DNA from: Paracyclopina nana
Lineage: Eukaryota > Arthropoda > Copepoda > Cyclopoida > Cyclopettidae
Direction of reading: 5' to 3'
DNA length: 64,000 bases
NCBI GenBank assembly: GCA_019096065.1
Contig: JAGUCH010000006.1
Coordinates: 20,001 to 84,000, forward strand
Made by a program: the position numbers and the translations under genes. A model generated the notes under the pieces. It was given only the letters and a program-made list of their open reading frames with translations. It searched no databases and was not told the origin of the DNA. Of the stretch, positions 24,412 through 51,600 are shown piece after piece. Numbering within the stretch: the stretch's first letter is position 1; every line of letters begins with the position of its first letter.

Positions 24412-25639
24412 TCTGTGACTGAATGTGGACTGCTGTGAGTGTTGTTTCCTATGAAATTTTGCAGGTTCTTCTAGCACATGTGTTCATTTTTGCTAAAAAA
24501 AACCAAATTTTTTTTGGCCTAACTTCTGTTTTTCCATAAAAGCATGAATCATTTGAAAATACAACAATGAAGCATTTCTTATTTACAAGAAAGAAAAAAC
24601 CCTTCTATAAATAGTTAAAGATTTTCAAGCAAACTTGTTCAGCAATGTCAGGATTAAGATAATTTAGATTTAAATATTTTGCTGAAAAAAAAAACAAAAA
24701 ATAGTGACGCCTTTTTTCAGGCACATAAACAAGATTGACATCAAATTGACAGCTTTGACCACGTTTCACACCTTATGCAAAGCCAATCGAGCTACAGTTT
24801 TATTTGGTAGAATTGCTATACTTTTTTGCCACAAGTGTGAGTAGTACCAAATATTTCATGTCTCAATATCACAGAGGAAAACTTTAAAAAGTGTACCGAT
24901 CTAAGAATAATCACTATTATTTATCAATTATAGCTTTACATACCTCGCAAGCTCGGCCTGAAAAAGCCAACAGTTTTCCATCAATTCATTACTTTTCCTG
25001 GTAAATTAGTTGATTTTTTGACAATAGGTGTCGCTTTCATCAAATATGGCAAGGAGTCCATTATTTTATGCACCACCTGGTGGCATTTTCGCAAAGCTTT
25101 CAATTTACTACGCCAGAAATTCAGCATTTGTACTGTTCACATAATTACTAATAATTATCCCAAAAGCCCTTGGCAATTGTAAGCAAGACAAAAGAAATGA
25201 AATGCCAATAAAGCCAAATCAAATGCAAATCTCAGTTTTATGGGGGCATTTTAGAGCCATCCCATTTAACGAGAAATTCAGACCAGATGAGAAAGGGGGA
25301 TGTAGTACAACTTTTGTTCCTGCTTTTAAAGATGAGTAAAGTTGAAAAAATTGTAAGTTTTGGAAGAAGCTGACGAAAATAATAGTAATCATTACACTAA
25401 AAAATGAAAGAGATATCTTCTATTAAAAATGTTTCATATTCTTCCCTATCCCCCATCTCGCACCAAGTTTGATGGCTGGTATGTTAATGATATGCAAAAA
25501 TCCTCTCGTGGCTTTCTTTTTCCCAAATGTAAGAGCTAATTTATCCATCAAGTTCTTTTTAAGCTCAACTGGCAGCTTGAAATAACCACTAATATTCACT
25601 GACCTCATTATTCTCATAGTCCCCTAAGGGCTCACTGTC
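24412..25639. other. Intergenic, nothing recognised
   Basis: AT-rich DNA upstream of the Cys-rich secreted protein. No gene, tRNA or strong repeat was recognised. A palindromic ACCACCTGGTGGCA occurs near 25071. Confidence 0.5.
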
Positions 25640-26460
25640 CTCCGTTGCGCTCAAAGTCTTCGCTACGCTCACAGTCCATGTGCGCTCAGGTTTCGTTGCG
25701 CTCGGGCTTCGTTGCGCTCAGGTTTCGTTGCGCTCGGGCTTCGTTGCGCTCAGGCTTCGTTGCGCTCAGGCTTCGTTGCGCTCAGGCTTCGTTGCGCTCA
25801 GGCTTCGTTGCGCTCAGGCTTCGTTGCGCTCAGGCTTCGTTGCGCTCAGGCTTCGTTGCGCTCAGGCTTCGTTGCGCTCAGGCTTCGTTGCGCTCAGGCT
25901 TCGTTGCGCTCAGGCTTCGTTGCGCTCAGGCTTCGTTGCGCTCAGGCTTCGTTGCGCTCAGGCTTCGTTGCGCTCAGGCTTCGTTGCGCTCAGGCTTCGT
26001 TGCGCTCAGGCTTCGTTGCGCTCAGGCTTCGTTGCGCTCAGGCTTCGTTGCGCTCAGGCTTCGTTGCGCTCAGGCTTCGTTGCGCTCAGGCTTCGTTGCG
26101 CTCAGGCTTCGTTGCGCTCAGGCTTCGTTGCGCTCAGGCTTCGTTGCGCTCAGGCTTCGTTGCGCTCAGGCTTCGTTGCGCTCAGGCTTCGTTGCGCTCA
26201 GGCTTCGTTGCGCTCAGGCTTCGTTGCGCTCAGGCTTCGTTGCGCTCAGGCTTCGTTGCGCTCAGGCTTCGTTGCGCTCAGGCTTCGTTGCGCTCAGGCT
26301 TCGTTGCGCTCAGGCTTCGTTGCGCTCAGGCTTCGTTGCGCTCATGCTTCGTTGCGCTCAGGCTTCGTTGCGCTCAGGCTTCGTTGCGCTAAGGCTCAGT
26401 TGCACTCACAGTATTCGTTGCGCTTAAGCTTCGATGCGCTCAAGCTTCGATGCGCTCATT
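25640..26460. repeat. 16-bp minisatellite, unit GGCTTCGTTGCGCTCA
   Basis: More than 40 copies of a 16-bp unit run almost without change from about 25730 to 26390, with diverged units at both edges (for example TTCGATGCGCTCAAGC at the right). Because 16 is not a multiple of three and the unit has no stop in any + frame, all three + frames stay open for over 220 codons; this is a repeat artefact, not coding. The homogeneity of the core against the degenerate edges points to recent expansion. Confidence 0.97.
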
Positions 26461-26529
26461 GTCCATGTGCTCTAGCAGTCCATGTGCGCTCACATTTTAG
26501 TCCCAAAAGCACTCATGATTCCACTTAAT

Positions 26530-29539: not shown

Positions 29540-29612
29540 CATCCCTGCCGGGATTCGAACCCGGGACCTTTGGATTAGAAGTCCAACGCGCTATCCACTG
29601 CGCTACAGGGAC
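29540..29612 (-). tRNA. tRNA-Arg (anticodon UCU)
   Basis: Read on the - strand the 73 nt fold into a full cloverleaf. The acceptor stem GTCCCTG pairs with CAGGGAT, the D arm contains GCGCAGTGGATAGCGC, and the anticodon stem TTGGA/TCCAA holds the loop CTTCTAA with anticodon TCT. The T arm is CCGGG-TTCGAAT-CCCGG. A box (TAGCGCAGTGG) and B box (GGTTCGAATCC) promoters are intact, and an eight-T run just downstream is a Pol III terminator. No intron. It decodes AGA. Confidence 0.98.
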
Positions 29613-37578: not shown

Positions 37579-37687
37579 GACTATTTTACTATTATAGCGC
37601 GCATCAAGAAATCAAAGAGTAAAAAAAATAGTTTTTTCAAAATATGTTTTTTAAAAATTGTGTTTATTTTTTTTCAGGAGAGAGAAA

Positions 37688-37711
37688 ATGCTGAAAAGTC
37701 CGCGAAAATGA
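37688..37711 (+). other. Upstream mini-ORF overlapping the channel start codon
   Basis: If the leader begins at the TTTTCAG acceptor ending at 37677, its first ATG (37688) opens a seven-codon frame whose TGA (37709-37711) overlaps the main ATG (37708-37710) as ATGA. Such an overlapping upstream frame would be expected to lower or gate translation of the channel-like protein. Confidence 0.45.
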
Positions 37712-40700
37712 AGGAGGAAACCGAGCATTCTGCAGCACCTGCTGCGAGAAAAGGGAGCAGGTGCAGCAGGTGCACCGCGGTGTTTTGCAGCACCTTCGGC
37801 GCCATTCTCCTCCTGCTTTCCTATGTGGTTTGCGGGGCTTTTGTGTTCTCAAGCCTCGAGACTTCACATGGTAATTTTCAATTTTCATCAGATTAATGGG
37901 AAACGTGACAATCCTGTTTTTTGCCAGACAATGAGGCAGAAATAATTAATTTAGCCAAGACTTCCACCCCTCTACAAAGACTGTTTTTTAATAGAAAGCT
38001 CTCCTCGGTAGGAAAAGAATCCTGTCATTGACCAAAAAAGATAAAGGCAGAGATAAAATGAAAATCCAAGTCCTTTTTTAAAAAAAAAATTCAAAAAGTA
38101 TCATTTTGACTCAAAATGTCTCATTTTGACTCAAAATGTCTCATTTTGACTCAAAAGGTCTCATTTTGACTCAAAATGTCTCATTTTGACTCAAAAAGTC
38201 TCATTTTGACTCAAAAGTACTCATTTTGACTCACAAAGTACTCATTTTGGCTCAAAAAGCCTCATTTTTACTCAAAAAGTCTCATTTTGACTCAATAAGA
38301 CTCATTTTGACTCAACAAGTCTCATTTTGACTCAAAAAGTCTCATTTTGACTCAAAAGCCCGGTTCCAACAAGGAAAATCAGCAAAGTCAGGAGACGTGA
38401 CCTGACTTTTTAGCATAGTCAGGTCACAGCTAGCTCGCGCGCTCAGCTCAACCTGACTTAACTGGTTTACCGTACTATACTATGCTGATATCCCGTGTTG
38501 GAACCGGGCTAAAAAGTATCATTTTGACTCAAAAAGTCTCATTTTGACTCAAAAAGTCTCATTTTGACTCAAAAGGTCTCATTTGACTCAAAACGTTTCA
38601 TTTGACTCAAAATGTATCATTTTGACTCAAAATGTATCTTTTTGACTCAAAAAGTATCAATTTGACTCACAAAGTATCAATTTGACTCACAAAGTATCAT
38701 TTTGACTCAAAAGGTCTCATTTGACTCAAAAAGTCTCATTTGACTCAAAAGGTCTCATTTGACTCAAAAAGTCTCATTTGACTCAAAAAGTCTCATTTTG
38801 ACTCAAAAAGGTCTCATTTTGTCTCGAAAGTTCTCATTTTGACTCAAATAGTCTCATTTTGACTCACAAAGTATCATTTTGACTCAAATAGTCTCATTTT
38901 GACTCAAAAGTACTCATTTTGACTCAAAAGTACTCATTTTCTTCTTCACTTTCTACCAAAAAAACAGAATTTAACTCATTTTATCTCAAACTTACAGACT
39001 ACATACTATTTGCCAAAAATCACAACTTTTATATACTGCCAAAAAAAACCTAGCTTTATGGTACATCATAAATGTAATTCTGCACTTGTTTGCAGGGCCA
39101 GCTCAGGTGAAGGCCAACGAAGTGGTGGTGAGCCTTGGCGTGCAAGAACAGCAGCATCAATTACGTGCTGTCCGCCAGCAAACTGTGGAGAAACTCTGGG
39201 AGATCACGGAGAAGCTCAACATTTTGTACAAAGACAACTGGACAGCTTTGGCAGACAGAGAAATGAGCAAATTCCAGGCTGAACTGCTGCAAAATGTCCA
39301 CCAAGACCAGCTTAAGGATTTGAATAAGAAGCAACAAATTGAAGACAGCAAGCCTAGAAAAAATGAGAGGACATTCGCAGCTTCTTTCCTCTACTCTTTG
39401 ACTCTGATTACCACAGTTGGTAAGTTGTGGCTTAGGTTATTTATGATATCCATACCTAAAAAGTATATTACTGCTAAAACTGGATCAAAAAGTATAATTC
39501 AAGAACTCAAAAGTACTCATTTTGAGTCAAACGTACTCATTTTGACTCAAAAGTACTCATTTTGACTCAAAAAGACTCATTTTGACTCAAAAGTACTCAT
39601 TTGACTCTAAAGGTCGCATTTTGATTCAAAAGTACTCATTTTGAGCCAAAAGTACTCATTTTGACTCAAAAGTACTCATTTTGCATCAAAAGTACTCATT
39701 TTGACTCAAAAGTACTCATTTTGACTCAATTTGACCAAAACAGTCTCATTTTGACTCAAATAGTATCTTTTTTGCAAAAAAGTATCTTTTTGCAAAAAAA
39801 GTATCGTTCTTGCTCAAAAAGTCTCATTTTGATTTAATGAGTTTTAATTTGATTTATGCATTATTTTGACTCAAAAAGTATCATTTTGACTTTAAAGCCA
39901 ACATTTTGACTCAAAAGTAATCATTCTGACTCAAAAACCATCTTGAAAAAATAAATTTATTTTGACCCAAAACTCAATATTTTGCCTCAAATAGTCTCAT
40001 TTTGGCCGGAAAAGTGTCAATTTGACTTTCTCATTCCATCCGAAATGGCTTTTTAATAGAAGCTGGAGAGAAAGCCTACAAAAAAAGATAGCTGAGGAAA
40101 TTAGGGTCAATATGGAAAGGGTCTGAGAGAGTAAACATTGAGAGGAAACATAAAAAGTGGAAGCCCAGATGATGACAGCAGAAGTAGTGTACACTAATAA
40201 AAATAATGGCCAGAGCATGAAATGGCCCGTGAAAAATGGCCTCAAATTGCCTAGCACTCCTATCACTTTCCAGCTTGGCCAGCTAAGGTCAAATATTTTA
40301 CTTAATTCCAGGTAATGGACAAAATGTGCCAGAATCTTCAGTTGGCAAAATTGTGGCCATGGTGGTCATTTCCTTGGGTTTGCCACTCCTGCTTGCCTAC
40401 TTAGCTATGACTGGAGCTGGGCTGGCAAAAGTGGTCAGACAGTGCTACAAACTTGTGGTCTGCCAAAAAGTGGCCAAAAGTGGTCCCCAAAACATTCAAT
40501 TGCAGCCACCCCAAAAGGTGCACGACATTGTGCATCATCGCAATAATGACTGCCAAATGAGCATCGAGAGTTGTGGTCAAGTGGCCCATTTGGACCACTG
40601 CACCGCTGTGCCCATGTGGTTGTGCCTGCTGCTGTTGTTTTGCTACATCTCAGCAGGAGCATCAGTGTTCTGTGTCTACCACCATGGAGAGTGGTCATTT

Positions 40701-41459
40701 GTGGACAGCTTCTTCTTTGCCTTCAACGCTTTGTGGACCATTGGTGTGGTTGATGTGACCACCAATCGGTCCTCGGACATGGGCAATGATGGCCTCTTTG
40801 TGGTCATTTGCAGTGTATATCTCCTGGTGGGCCTCTCAATTGTGGCCATGTGCTTTGCGGTGGTCCAGGACTCGACCACCACAGGTGGTCGCCTTTCCGC
40901 TTGCTTCTTAGGCGTGGACCACAGATGTGGTCGCCACTTGACCACAGGCAAGAATGGCCACTCGTCATGGGTGTACAACGAGGGACCATCCTGACACCAA
41001 TCGCTGTCCAGGGAAACCTCGACTGACCACTTTCCAAGCTTGGTTGAGGCCACTCCGACAAAGTCCACTTTTCCTTCCTCAGCATCCTTGGCGGATGGCA
41101 TCATCACTTCCACAAGTACAACCATTGCCATTGACAGTAGGAGCAATTGTGGGGCAATGCCTAGACCACCACCGCAACCACCCAGACCACCCATGCAAGC
41201 AATGAGCCTACCACGAGGCTGCAAACCATGTGACCACTCACCAAGGGCCACTGTGGTCAACTCGAGACGCTTGTCAGCTGAACTGGACCTGGACAAGTTG
41301 GACCTACGCCAAATTGATCCACTGTTGGCCTCCAAGCTGTTATCTGAGTTGAGGCATGGCACCGGTGGTGGTTGTGGTGCAGTTGACCGCCTCAAGACCA
41401 CCACCAAATCAGACCGGAAAGTGGTCACTTTTGAGGATGAGGATTTGAGTGACAACTGA
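37708..41459 (+). CDS. Two-pore-domain (K2P) potassium channel-like protein, altered filters
   Basis: Exons 37708-37870, 39096-39419 and 40312 onward are in phase. K2P subunits have four membrane helices and two pore loops and form dimeric leak channels. Here TM1 is AILLLLSYVVCGAFVF, the extracellular cap helix follows, and P1 reads FLYSLTLITTVGNGQNVPES; TM2 is IVAMVVISLGLPLLLAYLAM. TM3 is PMWLCLLLLFCYISAGASVF, P2 reads FNALWTIGVVDVTTN, and TM4 follows (LFVVICSVYLLVGLSIVAMC). The canonical GYG of P1 is GNG (AAT for TAT) and the GFGD of P2 is GVVD. Exon 3 can read to a stop at 40994 (389 aa). Alternatively it is spliced, for example from the phase-compatible CAG/GTGGTC at 40884, to the last exon at 41083-41459, giving 478 aa. 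Whether it conducts is unknown. Confidence 0.82.
38090..38960. repeat. Intronic minisatellite, unit TCATTTTGACTCAAAAAG
   Basis: About 40 units of 16-19 bp fill most of intron 1 of the K2P-like gene. Nearly every unit contains TGACTCA. The array is interrupted by a 154-bp inverted-repeat insertion at 38357-38510. The same unit reappears in intron 2. Confidence 0.95.
38357..38510. mobile_element. MITE inserted in the minisatellite, 154 bp
   Basis: Perfect 15-bp inverted ends (AGCCCGGTTCCAACA at 38357-38371 and its complement at 38496-38510) bound a GC-richer insert. The interior includes a perfect 11-bp stem, GTGACCTGACT with AGTCAGGTCAC. Flanks are A-runs of the minisatellite, so a target duplication cannot be resolved. 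No coding capacity. Confidence 0.82.
39490..39990. repeat. Intronic minisatellite, intron 2, same TGACTCA unit
   Basis: Units such as AAGTACTCATTTTGACTCA repeat about 20 times and decay to the right into TTTTGACTTTAA-like variants. The unit is the one found in intron 1 of the same gene, although an exon separates the arrays. Confidence 0.93.
41083..41459 (+). CDS. K2P C-terminal exon, tandem copy 1
   Basis: A strong acceptor (TTTTCCTTCCTCAG) precedes CATCCTTGGCGGATGG. The exon encodes a cytoplasmic tail of about 125 residues with a proline-rich stretch (PRPPPQPPRPP, a possible SH3 ligand), an LSAELDLDKLDL helix and the C-terminal KSDRKVVTFEDEDLSDN, then TGA. It is the first of four tandem copies with a spacing of about 415 bp. 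Confidence 0.65.
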
Positions 41460-41500
41460 AACTCGCTCTATATATTAATTCCACATCTACAATTCCCCAG

Positions 41501-41868
41501 CATCCTGGGCGGATGGCATCATCACTTCCACAAGTACAACCATTGCCATTGACAGTAGGAGCAATTGTGGGGCAATGCCTAGACCACCACCGCAACCGCC
41601 CAGACCACCCATGCAAGCGATGAGCCTACCAAGTGGCTGCAAACCATGTGACCACTCACCTGTGGTCAACTTGAGGCACTTGTCAGCTGAACTTGACCTG
41701 GACAAGTTGGACCTACACCAAATTGACTCATTGTTGGCCTCCAAGCTGTTATCTGAGCTGAGGCATGGCACCAGTGGCGGTTGTGGGGCAGTTGACCGCT
41801 TAAAGACCACCACCAAATCAGACCGGAAAGTGGTCACTTTTGAGGATGAGGATTTGAGTGACAACTGA
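41501..41868 (+). CDS. K2P C-terminal exon, tandem copy 2 (intact)
   Basis: It begins after ACAATTCCCCAG, with the same CATCCTGGGCGG start and the same reading phase as copy 1. The frame is open to a TGA at the equivalent position. Differences from copy 1 are scattered substitutions and small in-frame indels (for example fewer residues after CDHSP). An alternative terminal exon or a recent duplicate; RNA is needed to tell. Confidence 0.6.
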
Positions 41869-41908
41869 AACTCACTCTATAGTTTATTCCACATCTGCAA
41901 TTCCTCAG

Positions 41909-42284
41909 CATCCTTGGCGGATGGCATCATCACTTCCATGAGTACAACCATTGACAGTAGGAGCAATTGTGGGGCAATGCCTAGACCACCACCGCAACCA
42001 CCCAGACCACCCATGCAAGCAATGAGCCTACCACGAGGCTGTGACCACTCACCGAGGACCACTCACCGAGGACCACTGTGGTCAACTCGAGACACTTGTC
42101 AGCTGAACTTGACCTGGACAAGTTAGACCTACGCCACATTGATTCACTGTTGGCCTCCAAGCTGTTATCTGAGCTGAGGCATGGCACTGCTGGTGGTTGT
42201 GGTGCAGTTTACTGCTTCAAGAACTCCACCAAATCAGACCGGAAAGTGGTCACTTTTGAGGATGAGGATTTGAGTGACAACTGA
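41909..42284 (+). pseudogene. K2P C-terminal exon, tandem copy 3 (frameshifted)
   Basis: The acceptor (GCAATTCCTCAG) and start are preserved, but a 14-bp direct duplication of CACCGAGGACCACT near 42050-42077 shifts the frame. The first half reads in one frame (ADGIITSMSTT onward) and the second (LSAELDLDKLDL to DLSDN) in another. If spliced in, this copy would give a different, shorter tail. Confidence 0.75.
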
Positions 42285-42324
42285 AACTCACTCTATAGTT
42301 TATTCCACATCTGCAATTCCTCAG

Positions 42325-42683
42325 CATCCTTGGCGGATGGCATCATCACTTCCATGAGTACAACCATTGCCATTGACAGTAGGAGCAATTGTGGGGCAAT
42401 GCCTAGACCACCACCGCAACCACCCAGACCACCCATGCAAGCAATGAGCCTACCACGAGGCTGTGATCACTCACCGAGGACCACTCTGTTCAACTCGAGA
42501 CGCTTGTCAGCTGAACTGGTCCTGGACAAGTTGGACCTACACCACATTGACCCACTGTGTGCCTCCAAGCTGTTATCTGAGCTGAGGCGTGGTGGTGCTA
42601 GTGCAGTTGACCACTTCAAGACCACTAGCAAATCAGACCGGAAAGTGGTCACTTTTGAGGATGAGGATTTGAGTGGCAACTGA
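42325..42683 (+). CDS. K2P C-terminal exon, tandem copy 4 (intact)
   Basis: The acceptor GCAATTCCTCAG precedes CATCCTTGGCGG and the frame is open to TGA, ending DEDLSGN. It lacks the 14-bp duplication of copy 3 and has its own changes (LVLDKLDL, RRGGASAVDH). It is the last copy; its stop is 167 bp from the stop of the convergent sulfotransferase. Confidence 0.6.
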
Positions 42684-42850
42684 AATACAGAATATATTTC
42701 ACATCTGTTATACAAAATCATCTGTTTACAAGGCCTTTTAATCAAAATAATGAAGGAACCTGATTCTGACCACTTATAATTATACCTCATATAAGTCTTT
42801 CAAGAAAGTGACCACTTTTAGCAAAACAATTATCATGGTTTTTTTTTTGG

Positions 42851-45800
42851 TTAAATGAGATCACTTGGAGTTTGCTTGCACAACTGTTTGAAAGGCTCAA
42901 TGGTGTAGTCAAACATTTCCAGGTCCATTTTGTAGATGGCCTCAAGCTTGAGCAGCTGAGAGCAGGTGACATTGGAGAAGTATTCGGCTCTCAATACATT
43001 TGCTGACAGTCCATGGTTAGGCTTGTAATGGCGATATTCCAGCTGGATGAACTGATCCATTCTTGATTGACTCAGTACATACTTCTCGTCCTCCTCGGAG
43101 CTTTCCAGCTTGATTATCGCGTCATAATCTACCAAGCAGGGTGAGCAGTGCTGCAATACATAAGACTCTTTTCAGACAAATGTCCCAGCACTCCTATAAC
43201 TAATTGCTGGCCATAAAAAGAGCAATCAATTAATGGAGAAAAGTGGCCGCAAATCAACCATTTCGTTCCTTTACCGCCCTCGCTACTGCTCGTACATGAA
43301 ATCTCGCACTCGGCATTTCCTCTAAATCCTCCCCCGCATTTTAACCGTATTAAATGTTGAAAATGTAAAGAGGAAAACCCTTTAATTGGCACCAGGTACG
43401 TAAACTTTACGTAGTTAGGGAAAAATAAGAAGCATTAAAGTAACCGAGCAAATATTTTTCGAGCCGAGCATTGCGCGGTATCATCAAGAAATGATCCCTT
43501 CACTTTTTGCTTACTTCCATCAATCAAAATCAATGGAAAATGGATGGTGTTTTTCCTTTGCAATAAAGTAGTGGTAGTAAAAGAAAGTCGGATGACTTGA
43601 TTGATTCTTTACCTGGTTAACTGACATCCAATGTGGGTCGTGCTCATCGATTTTCTCCACAACATACTGAATGAATTCTTGGAACATGGGAAACGTCTTG
43701 ATGCAGCCAGTGTATTTGTCAAACAGCACAGACGTTCCCAGCCTGACAAGTCTGCAATTATTGAAACTTTGAAAATTAGAAGAAAAATGGACCTAAATCA
43801 CTATTAACAGCACTTATTTGCAAAAATAATTAATTCAAGTCATTATATTGAGGCATTGCAACTTAAGTTGAGTAATGATAACTCATTGGAGTCATTATAA
43901 CTTATTTGAGTCATTAAAACTCATGCGAGTCACTGTAACTCATATTGAGTCATTTTAACTTATTTTGAGTCACTATAACTCATATTGAGTCATTATAACT
44001 CATATTGAGTCATTATAACTTATATTGAGTCACTTTAACTCATATTGAGTCATTTTAACTTATATTGAGTCATAGTAACTCATATTGAGTCATTATAACT
44101 CATATTGAGTCATTATAACTCATATTGAGTCATTATAACTCATATTGAGTCATTATAACTCATATTGAGTCACTATAACTTAAGTTGAGTCACTATAACT
44201 CATACTCGAGTATTAAAATCAATGCTCATGGTCATTGTGGGCCAGTCTTTATTATTTCACCTTGCTCGTGTCCTTGAGAGAATTTGAGGCACGTGGTATT
44301 TTGACTGGTCGGTGCAGCCTCCCAAAATTCGATCACGATAGGCTGAAATGAGTCGATCAAAGGGATGGCGGACCACAGTGAAAGTAAAGTAGTGGCCTGG
44401 GCTCAAAGTGTCCACCAATTGCTGAGAACTGGAAGGTGACATGACATCCACTATTCTGAAAAAAAGCAATTGAAAACCTCAATTTCCTTCAGCCAACATC
44501 TTGAGCTTAGTTACTAATAACTTTTGGCTATAACTTGTAGTCTGAGAATTATTCTGATTAATCAATAAGAATTACAATGCGGCCAATTTGAGGTAATATT
44601 AATTTTCTTTCGCATAAAAGCTAATTGAAGCTTGTCATTGCTTTTGGCCAATTTCATTTTACTGATTTATTAATCCAGCCATGAATTTGAATGACATACT
44701 TTGTAGGGGATCTCATTTGTGTACTCCAAGCAAGAATACTACATTGAGGCCGAATAAACATAATCTATTATGGTATCATGGTATTTTCCCTGGTATTTTT
44801 TGATCAATATTTCCATTTAGCTTGAGGTATTCTCATTATCTTGGTATAACAGTGCAAGTATCAGTAAAGAGATAAAAACATTTAATTAAAAAAAGGCCCT
44901 GAATGTCTGAAAATTAATAACACGACTCGATGCTAAAACACTCAAGTCTCGATGAAAAAACTCTCATCTTTAAACAATTTCTCCGTTCTAAATTACTCTC
45001 CGCTAATAACTTTCAACTCTAAATTACTATCAAAAACAATAACTTTGATCGCTCAGTTTCTAAATAAGTAGCTACCAGGACTAAATTACTCTCTACTCTA
45101 AAAAGTTATCAAATCTAAATAATTTCCAAAAATAAATAGCTCTCAACTTTAAATAATTATCAAATCCCAATAACTCTCAAATCTAAATATATCTCAAGCC
45201 TAAATAACTCTCAAATCTGAATAACTCTCAAAACTGAATACATGTAAATAACTCTTTACTTTACATTGTTATCAAATGTAAATAACTCTCAAATCTGAAT
45301 AACTCTCAAATCTAAATAACTCTCAAATCTAAAAAAACTTTTTTCTTAAAATAACTTTCAAATCTGAATAACTCTAAAATCTAAATATTTCTCTACTTTA
45401 AATAACTCTCAAATCTGAATAACTCTCAAATCTGAATAACTCTCAAATCTGAATAACTCTCAAAACTAAATAACTCCCAACTTTAAATAACTATCAAATG
45501 TAAATAACTCTCAAATCAGAATAACTCTTCTCTTTGAAAAATTATCAAATCTGAATAACTCTCAACTCTGATTAACTTCCAGCTCTTTTCAGCTATTAAC
45601 TTTCATATTATTTCATCCAGATGAAGTTATTTACTTGTAGAAAGTGCCTGAAGCATTGAGCCTTCGGTACTGGTCCATCCCGTGGAGCTTTGCAAAAGTG
45701 GACATCCACGTGGAAGAGGCCACCTTGTTATTGTAGCACAAAACCGTGGGCGGTAAATGTGCAATCAAAAATGAATCCTTGAGGATTTTATGCGAGAAAT

Positions 45801-48291: not shown

Positions 48292-48626
48292 CTTTTTATC
48301 TTTCATTCCGCATGATAACGAATGTCAACACACTTATCGCTTAAAAAAGAAGTTTGAATTTTCGCGCGCTTTCTTCTTGAAAAGCAAGCGCACGCTCTTC
48401 TATCAAAAGCGCTACCAGATCAATCTATAAAAAAGAAAAAATGTCTTTTTTCCACTAAGAAACCTAAAAAAGCAAAAAAATAAGTTGTTAATTTTCAAAA
48501 GTGGCACTTTTCAAGAGTGTTTGGGGATTTAACTGGTTCTTAATCTGGTAGCGCTTTTGCGTTGCTGCGCATGCGCAGTGAGCTTCAGTCAACAAAACTT
48601 TGTTTACACTACTGAGGGTTGGCACA
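48292..48626. promoter_or_regulatory. Bidirectional promoter of sulfotransferase and Frizzled, 335 bp
   Basis: The two start codons face away from each other across 335 bp. Inside lies a 16-bp perfect inverted repeat, AAAAGCGCTACCAGAT at 48405-48420 and its complement at 48543-48558. The sequence TGCGCATGCGCA at 48566-48577 matches the NRF-1 consensus. No TATA box was seen, which is usual for NRF-1 promoters. Confidence 0.6.
48566..48577. promoter_or_regulatory. NRF-1-type palindromic site
   Basis: TGCGCATGCGCA is a perfect 12-bp palindrome and matches the NRF-1 (insect erect wing) consensus YGCGCAYGCGCR. It lies 49 bp upstream of the Frizzled start codon, a typical core-promoter position. 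Binding is inferred, not shown. Confidence 0.5.
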
Positions 48627-51600
48627 ATGGGGGCATTTTCACGGGTCTTTTTGGCCTTGTTGGCCTTCAAGGCCAGCGTGAAGGCTGTCGATCCCGAGCA
48701 TGCACCTACATGTGAGCCTTTGAAGTCCGACATGTGTCGAACCAAGGACAATATCCCCCTGTACAACTCCACTGGCATGCCCAACTTTGCCAATCACAAG
48801 AGCCAAGCAGATGCCAATTACAACATGGCCACCTTCTTCCCCTTGATTCAAACTGGTTGTGCTCCGGAATTGCAGTTTTTCCTCTGCTCAGTCTACGTCC
48901 CAATGTGTGTAGATCATAGCCCACAAAAGCTGATTGGGCCTTGTCGGCCTTTATGCGAACGAGTGCGGAAAAAGTGCGAGCCTGAACTCGATTCGAGTTT
49001 CAACATCAAATGGCCTCAGGTAAATTGATTACAAGTGTCCTCGTTTGTTGCTCATTTGCCTTCATTGAATCAGATTTCTTCGATTTGGCTTGGGTTGAAT
49101 TGATCATTTACCCAACTCTCAAATAGTATTAACATCTCTAAAACATACATAATTATAAGTTATGATGTTTTAGTTACATTTTTGCTGAACGTTCACATTC
49201 ATGACTTAATGTCTTATGTTTAAATTTGCAAATCAACGGTTTATTGCTTAAAAGACTTTTTCGCATCTACTCATTTCAAAGCAAAGAAATGCCTATAATA
49301 CATACATAATCATAAGTTATGATTTTTCACTTACATTTTTTGCTGAACGTTCATGACTTAACGTCTTATGTTTAAATTTGCAAATCAATGCTTTATTGCT
49401 TAAAAGACTTGGTCGAGTCGACTCATTTCAAACTAAAGAAATGCCTTACAAGCTTGACGAATGTGGATCAATCAAGGCCACTTGTCATCGATTGAGCAAA
49501 AGTCATTTGTTCATAAAACTCCTTTCAGGTGCTCAATTGCTCCAAGTTTCCGGAGACGAATGTACATGAGCACATGTGCATCGATGTCCCCTCTGAACAC
49601 GCCCCTTTCTCAATGGGCTTGCCGCCCTCTTCGCTCAACTCGTTGCAGAGCAACCCCTTGTTCATGGAGAAGGTGAAGCAGCAGCTGGCCAACAACCATG
49701 GGGATGACAACACTTTGAAGCCCTACAAGAACTACATGGAGATCCTCAAGAACAACCTGGACAAACTGGAGCCTGCGAAAGGCGTTAACCTTCAATGCGG
49801 GGACCTCAAAAAGTCCTTCAAGTATGTCCATTCGAAGAGGAAGGACATTTGCATCCCCAAATGTGGCCTTGAAATCACCTTCAGCAAGGAAAACAAGGCC
49901 AACACCAACTCACTCATTGTGGCCTTGGCAGCCTTCTGTTTTGGCCTCAGCCTACTCACCTTTTTGGCCTTTATGGCCAACTCTTGCTGGGACTTGTCAG
50001 CCCCCTCCACAGCCTCCAATTTTGCCCACCAGTCCCCAGCCTTTTTGGCCCTCACCTTTGTGGGCTACAGCTTTGGCTACCTCACCAGCCAAATTGGCCT
50101 TTATCACAACCCTGACTGGCTGTGTGTGGGTGAGCTGCAGGCCCAAGAAGGCCAAAGGTCACAGCCTTGCATTGTCATCTTCCTTTTTGTCTACTTCTTT
50201 GGCCTTGCAGCCTCCTGCTGGTGGACAGTTGTGGCCTTTTCCTGGGCCTTGGCCCAGTACTTCCAGCCTTCAAAGGCCAACATGGCCACCATCTCGAAGC
50301 TGTGCCACTTTTATGCCTGGGGCCTTCCAGCCTTGTTCACTTTGGCCTCCATTATCCTGCACAACATCGAGGCTGACGAGCTGACCTCGGTTTGCCTGCC
50401 AGGGGCCTTGCAAGATGACAGCAGCCTTTTGACCTTTGTTGTCGTACCTGAAGGCGTACAGCTGGTCTTGGGCTCAGCCATGTACTTGTCTGGCCTCTGC
50501 TTGGCCTTTTTCTGCGGCGAGGCCACCACCAGTGAGCAAGCCAGGGGCAAATCCGAGGCCAAACACTTGAGGAGCTTAAGGCTGCGTTACAGCCTTTATG
50601 GGTTTGTCTTCACTTGTGCCAAGGTAACGTAAAAGTCATTTCCATTTCAGTGCAGCCAACTGGAAGAAGACTAAAGATTCTAATTTTAACTGATTTTCAA
50701 AGATTTTGTAATTTTCTCGGGCGGCCGTACTTGGATCGACTAGGACATTCTGTCCCTGGATCGACTGCAACAGATCAGATAGACTAAGAGAACACACTGT
50801 CCTTGGATCGATTGGATCGACTGTCATGTTAGAGAAGGACTTGGGTCAACTAGATCGATTTGTACTTGGATAGACTGGCAGAACATACTGTACTTGCATC
50901 GAAAACTGGATCGTCCTTGGATCGACTGTTATAACAAACAGTCCCTGGATAGACTAGAGCTAACCTGGTACTGCTGGGAAAGACACTATGTCGATCTAAG
51001 GGACGATTCGTTTTGTCGATCCAAGGACTGTGCATTCTCATAGTCGGTCCGTGGACGGTTTGTCTTGTCGATCCAGGTACAGCTCGTTTTTCTAGTCTAA
51101 CTAAATACAGCAAGTTCTGGTCGATCTGAGCACTGTATGTTCTCATAGTCGATCCAAAGACGATTTCTTTTGTCGATCCAAGTCCGGTTCGTTGTAGTCT
51201 ATCCATGGACGATCCGTTGTCGATCCAAGGGTACGAGTTCGAACCAATCACGTCTATATATTTTTCAACTTTTCAGATGGGTGTTTTTGCCACCTGGGTG
51301 TATGAGTATGCGAATCGAAGACAATGGCTCTATGTGAGCTCAAAGGATCTTCCGGATGTCAACATTTTCTGGCTGAGGATCACACTGTCTCATTTAGTGG
51401 GCATTTTGATGCCTTGGTGGATTGTCACCTCACAAACCAAATTAACCTGTTTCTCATTGTGGAAATCAAACAAGCCAACAAATGGCAGCCAAACAAATCA
51501 GTTCCCCTCTGTAGCCTACAGACCACAAGCAACTGTAAGCTCAATTACTATTAATTAAATGAATGACTCATTATGATGATGTTTCAGGAAATGGTGAACA

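Follow-up and report, generated by a model that had tools for sequence, protein, structure and literature searches.

A K2P-derived channel gene pair with both selectivity filters altered, and a likely coding tail beyond its in-frame stop, in the copepod Paracyclopina nana

Channels of the K2P (KCNK) family are defined by their potassium selectivity, and cyclic nucleotide-gated (CNG) channels carry T-I-G followed by residues other than GYG. According to the available parts of two sources (PMC9822992; PMC8689586), the NaK channel has the filter TVGDGN, which departs from TVGYGD at the tyrosine position that is also changed in the gene described below; it forms only ion sites S3 and S4 and is non-selective, and it gains four sites and K+ selectivity when changed to TVGYGD. 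Abundant stop-codon readthrough, for its part, is described in Pancrustacea and in no other group tested (available part of PMC5100048). This report concerns a K2P-like gene in a 64,000-nucleotide stretch of the P. nana genome (GCA_019096065.1, contig JAGUCH010000006.1; C6:20001-84000), which is called the window throughout and whose own positions are used unless another contig is named. In this gene and in a second copy on contig C4 (L024 7924-5824, minus strand, likewise in three exons), both selectivity filters are altered, the channel is maintained under purifying selection, and translation is likely to continue past the first stop codon.

The coding exons of the window gene, with the two filters that they contain, are as follows.

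37708..37870, forward strand: coding exon 1, N-terminus and first helix (M1); open frame, GT donor and the M1 hydropathy peak; exon 1 of the C4 copy is L024 7924-7732
39096..39419, forward strand: coding exon 2, extracellular cap region and the start of the first pore loop (P1; TTV-G); open frame, splice sites and alignment with the C4 copy
39410..39419, forward strand: exon 2 part of the P1 filter, TTV plus the first base of a Gly codon
40312..40994, forward strand: coding exon 3, the remainder of P1, helices M2 and M3, the second pore loop (P2) and M4, up to the TGA at 40992-40994; PF07885, E 1.1e-10
40312..40319, forward strand: exon 3 part of the P1 filter, the rest of that Gly, Asn (AAT, 40314-40316) and Gly; the same GNG in L024
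40737..40754, forward strand: P2 filter, TIGVVD; TVGVVD in L024

Joined from the ATG at 37708, with GT-AG at both introns, these exons encode a protein of 389 residues whose frame is open until the TGA. The spliced protein contains two Ion_trans_2 stretches (PF07885, E 1.9e-17), i.e. two pore-loop domains in one chain. Among the best 60 of the 103 sequences at E up to 1, K2P9 and K2P3 are its nearest relatives in the PDB (lowest E 5.8e-13), and the phmmer alignment to K2P9 covers M1 (weakly, at 4.6 bits), P1-M2 and P2-M4. Hydropathy peaks (windows above 1.5) at residues 32-50, 178-196, 266-284 and 324-342 stand where M1-M4 are expected, and by hydropathy and phmmer the order M1-P1-M2-M3-P2-M4, with a putative cap region between M1 and P1, appears to be in place. 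An AlphaFold model of the exon-3 fragment (six sequences; mean predicted local distance difference test score, pLDDT, of 63) has the expected helices, and TASK and TWIK structures rank first against it (best E 8.3e-3, TM about 0.5), no structure matching at E up to 0.001. The two-pore layout, four helices and intact frame that an earlier note on this DNA had described are thus borne out by the open 389-residue frame, the PF07885 pair and the hydropathy profile. The gene span that it gave, 37708..40994, has the right coordinates but stops short, as conserved coding sequence continues past 40994; the note mentions neither the C4 copy nor the tail and its tandem repetition.

The canonical T-x-G-(Y/F/L)-G is found in neither loop. 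P1 reads TTVGNG across the junction of exons 2 and 3 (donor TTG/GTAAGT, acceptor TTCCAG/GTAATGG, the slash marking the splice site), and P2 reads TIGVVD; because the canonical filter fails in both, the gene is classed as a K2P-derived variant and not as a K+ channel. The single-base change proposed earlier for P1, AAT for TAT across a splice junction, is confirmed: the Asn codon at 40314-40316 is AAT, and TAT there would encode Tyr. The second filter is altered too, but only two of its residues differ (F to V and G to V, the Asp being kept) and not the three or more that had been counted. In the C4 copy, P1 reads TTTGNG and P2 TVGVVD, and the junction likewise falls inside the P1 Gly codon, so that T-x-G is kept and the aromatic residue gone in both loops of both copies. 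At the last pore-helix position of P2, which is usually Thr, the window copy has Trp and the C4 copy retains Thr. A different junction restoring GYG, named beforehand as a possible refutation, was looked for among the intron 2 acceptors, and none in either copy precedes bases that restore Gly-Tyr/Phe-Gly. As read from Pfam matches, an interruption directly before GYG is also present in about 13 of the other 21 K2P genes (at least five have no break there), and the predicted P1 junction is therefore a common one in this genome's K2P genes. To judge from these residues, the channel has probably lost the usual form of potassium selectivity.

The search for a second copy covered the animal's own genome (92 Mb in 10 contigs). 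Over 360 aligned codons, the window and C4 copies have 64 % protein identity, a dS of 0.94, a dN of 0.27 and a dN/dS of 0.29 (Nei-Gojobori method); by part, dN/dS is 0.17 in P1-M2 (60 codons), 0.24 in M3-P2-M4 (84 codons) and 0.56 in the 39 codons that separate the end of M4 from the stop. The two copies have identical GNG and GVVD and, since two loci this diverged share them, a sequencing error or a simple or recent decay is unlikely. The channel pair is maintained under purifying selection, as the earlier note had supposed in calling the protein maintained rather than decayed; of the outcomes that it held could overturn this, a sequencing error is argued against by matching filters at a second locus, and a neutral dN/dS was not obtained. 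A canonical K2P gene lies at C4:6809807-6812955, about 10 kb from the C4 copy and on the same strand, a proximity that suggests, without proving, a tandem origin; an intron of this neighbour (L026 1-5000 = C4:6809001-6814000) has long AAATGAAGCTTTTT-type arrays.

A PF07885 search of the genome gave 69 matches, 45 of which were assigned by eye to 23 two-pore genes and 24 set aside as single-pore; the window P1 is itself absent from these matches, and a K2P with both loops escaping the Pfam search would be overlooked. All 21 of the other recognised two-pore genes are canonical, their P1 reading GYG and their P2 G(F/L)GD. In the tree, the altered pair forms a separate branch with support of 100/100 and a length of 1.57. 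Its placement as neighbour of one canonical K2P was considered and not retained, the tree leaving that placement open (11 of 20 inner branches open). Among the open-access papers listed, judged by titles and the starts of abstracts, none describes a K2P with both filters altered.

The second main facet of the locus is the sequence that follows the first stop codon.

40992..40994, forward strand: TGA with C as the next base, the first stop in frame; both copies retain this candidate readthrough codon
40995..41459, forward strand: in-frame tail of 154 codons with its own stop at 41457-41459, containing unit 1 of a tandem repeat; 72 % identity to the C4 copy in the first comparison, and dN/dS as given below
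41418..41432, forward strand: KVVTF, candidate PP1-docking (RVxF-like) motif, also in the C4 copy
41081..42690, forward strand: four tandem copies of the tail and the 3' untranslated region, period about 416; copies 1, 2 and 4 open, copy 3 frameshifted

The C4 copy has a TGA at the equivalent point followed by a tail of 159 codons, and across 152 codons the two tails share 71 % identity (dS 0.57, dN/dS 0.33, falling to 0.165 in the first 29 codons). Within those 29 codons, 14 nucleotide changes produce four amino-acid changes, against a mean of 9.4 when changes are placed at random (1 of 5000 draws as low; P 0.0002), and the first 15 codons by themselves show protein-like evolution at P 0.012. 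Third positions take 9 of the 14 changes in this part and 43 of 85 in the remaining tail. The 60 bases that span stop 1 have a nucleotide identity of 0.92, and the 60 that lead up to stop 2 one of 0.61. Similarity ends past stop 2, where the copies differ at 18 of at most 31 aligned bases and the changes follow no codon pattern (third positions account for 6 of the 18). The extension thus evolves as protein from the first stop to the next and, because it does so and similarity ends after stop 2, translation past the first stop is likely. Stop-codon readthrough would be the best explanation and the simplest route to the tail. TGA-C is a leaky stop context, and it is kept in both copies; selenocysteine at the UGA was considered and rejected, as an Rfam search at E up to 10 of window 40900-43300 and L024 3500-6400 returned no selenocysteine insertion sequence (SECIS) family. 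Among the open-access papers listed on readthrough and potassium channels, none concerns this case.

The tail, which is proline-rich and whose last residues are KVVTFEDEDLSDN (window) and KVVTFEEDHVMS (C4), has no Pfam or PDB match. KVVTF, which fits the PP1-docking RVxF pattern, is the sole match to that pattern in the tail or channel of each copy; it may be a PP1 dock, a lead only, given a rough chance rate of once per several hundred residues. Within the tandem array, tail copies 1 and 2 are apparently constrained against each other (dN/dS 0.19) and copy 4 against copy 1 apparently not (1.02). Each tail repeat begins with an acceptor-like TTCCTCAG or TTCCCCAG, copies 2 and 4 have frames that stay open past the second stop, and these two copies might serve as alternative last exons.

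The reading favoured here, at a probability of about 0.4, is that the pair encodes a subunit of a cation leak that is not selective for K+; it is preferred only narrowly over a non-conducting regulatory subunit, and this because the filter residues are identical in two old copies. The outer half of the filter would have been rebuilt in both copies (GYG to GNG in P1, GFG to GVV in P2) and the inner T-x-G ring kept, and since T-x-G is kept in each filter, the pore could still form two of its four canonical ion sites. The subunit would still fold as a K2P dimer in which just the inner ion sites S3 and S4 persist, as in NaK, and would conduct Na+ and K+ with little selectivity, thereby depolarising the cell instead of hyperpolarising it. 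Some ribosomes may then read through the UGA after ...WVYNEGPS and add a proline-rich cytoplasmic tail of about 155 residues, whose KVVTF may provide a dock for PP1 or another regulator; a short and a long isoform would result. Taken as one proposal, i.e. a K2P-derived lineage with a Na+/K+ depolarising leak via the inner T-x-G ring, regulated by programmed UGA readthrough that adds a phosphatase-docking tail, the whole is rather doubtful.

Several points weigh against a regulated, non-selective leak. The Val at the second filter Gly of P2 may simply block the pore; the exon-3 model is uninformative on conduction, because its pLDDT is below 50 around the filter (residues 144-157); the substitution rates compare two sequences only; and, regarding readthrough, the 100 bases that follow the stop show no clear RNA structure (z -1.0 and -0.5, the two folds differing), and seven phase-compatible GT-AG pairs around the stop are common to both copies, five of which would remove it (e.g. 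40973-41011, 39 nt, and 40971-41048, 78 nt). That the same Val has no precedent in NaK, and that P2 loses its second Gly while both loops lose the Tyr/Phe, residues established as normally needed for K+ conduction, lends weight to a quite plausible alternative in which the protein conducts nothing. It would dimerise with a canonical K2P, of which there are at least 21 genes here, and silence or retarget it as a dominant-negative regulator of the leak, the filter being dead while selection keeps the fold, the cap and the trafficking surfaces; constraint on the channel as a whole and on the tail is as this would predict. A dead filter should drift, however, and GNG and GVVD are yet identical at a dS of 0.94, with P1-M2 having the lowest dN/dS of the three channel parts (0.17 vs 0.24 and 0.56).

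The two loops of a K2P channel can have unlike filters, which can take up asymmetric states (available part of PMC8689586), and a heterodimer with a canonical subunit would retain one canonical P1 and one canonical P2, so that a K+-selective or conditionally selective channel, whether by such pairing or through an unusual filter geometry, is conceivable; the loss of the aromatic residue from both loops and of the second Gly from P2 makes it improbable. Still less probable is an artefact, in which a wrong junction or a sequencing error masks a canonical filter, or in which splicing, and not readthrough, brings the tail into an isoform. The five stop-removing GT-AG pairs speak for the latter, although by eye the shared sites look poor; there is no AG between the first stop and tail codon 6, and the codons directly after the stop evolve as protein. 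For the filters, the absence of a GYG-restoring acceptor and the matching residues at an independent locus argue against an artefact. A relaxed, decaying gene, already disfavoured, is the least credible account: the altered filters themselves and tail copies 3 and 4, which look decayed or relaxed (a frameshift, and the dN/dS of 1.02 against copy 1), are what it could call upon, against intact frames, conserved splice sites and a dN/dS of 0.29 over 360 codons at two loci.

The remaining features of the gene lie upstream of the ATG and within the introns.

37667..37677, forward strand: likely acceptor of an intron in the 5' untranslated region, directly upstream of the ATG; the sequence is TTTTTTTTCAG here and TTTTCTTTTCAG on C4
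38091..38940, forward strand: 20-bp tandem array in intron 1
39505..39936, forward strand: 20-bp tandem array in intron 2

By reading of the sequence, the putative acceptor of the C4 copy is followed by an in-frame TGA, and the upstream part is therefore noncoding there. Both window introns hold arrays of a 20-bp, ACTCAAAAGTCTCATTTTG-like unit, and the introns of the C4 copy are short (about 330 and 181 bases). The start of contig C6 lies 20 kb ahead of the window, which has CCTAA (TTAGG) runs of four or more at about 4073, 4208, 4238, 4563 and 4663; CCTAA/TTAGG arrays also occur at the starts of contigs C2 and C5, and the initial 3 kb of C1, C3 and C4 contain none. TTAGG-type telomere repeats fit an arthropod and, from the arrays near the start of C6, the window copy may be subtelomeric. 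Elsewhere in the window, an Rfam scan at gathering scores returned one tRNA gene (29540-29612, minus strand; RF00005) and nothing else, open reading frames at 48582-50632 resemble, by reading only, a Frizzled/Smoothened receptor, and long open reading frames at 25603-26528, open in all three forward frames, consist almost wholly of the short repeat ASLRSGFVALRLRCAQ and are probably not genes.

With both filters changed and purifying selection acting on it, the gene pair amounts to a natural experiment on which residues selectivity and conduction need, and with two diverged copies and a canonical neighbour in one genome it is directly testable by expression. A non-selective channel would place beside the NALCN sodium leak a counterpart derived from K2P, and a silent one would act as a K2P silencer encoded in the genome. 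The conserved tail after the stop adds a likely case of readthrough in an ion channel.

Set beside known systems, the gene is closest to the K2P (KCNK) channels, among which TASK-1 and TASK-3 are the best solved relatives: the two pore loops, four helices and cap region between M1 and P1 are alike, whereas the filters are GYG/GFG there and GNG and GVV here. The NaK filter, TVGDG, keeps T-x-G and has a short polar residue in place of Tyr, and the P1 TVGNG is similar; the NaK structure 3e83 gives a weak sequence match over P1 (E 0.027). NaK, however, is a tetramer of one-loop subunits, the second loop here (TIGVVD) is without a NaK counterpart, and conduction is for this gene predicted only. CNG channels belong to a different family, but they keep T-I-G and lack the outer GYG part, as does P2 here. 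The case differs from the Pancrustacea readthrough genes (available part of PMC5100048) in that it is seen in two paralogues and not in orthologues, with no RNA structure found, and it shares with them a conserved in-frame stop followed by a protein-like extension.

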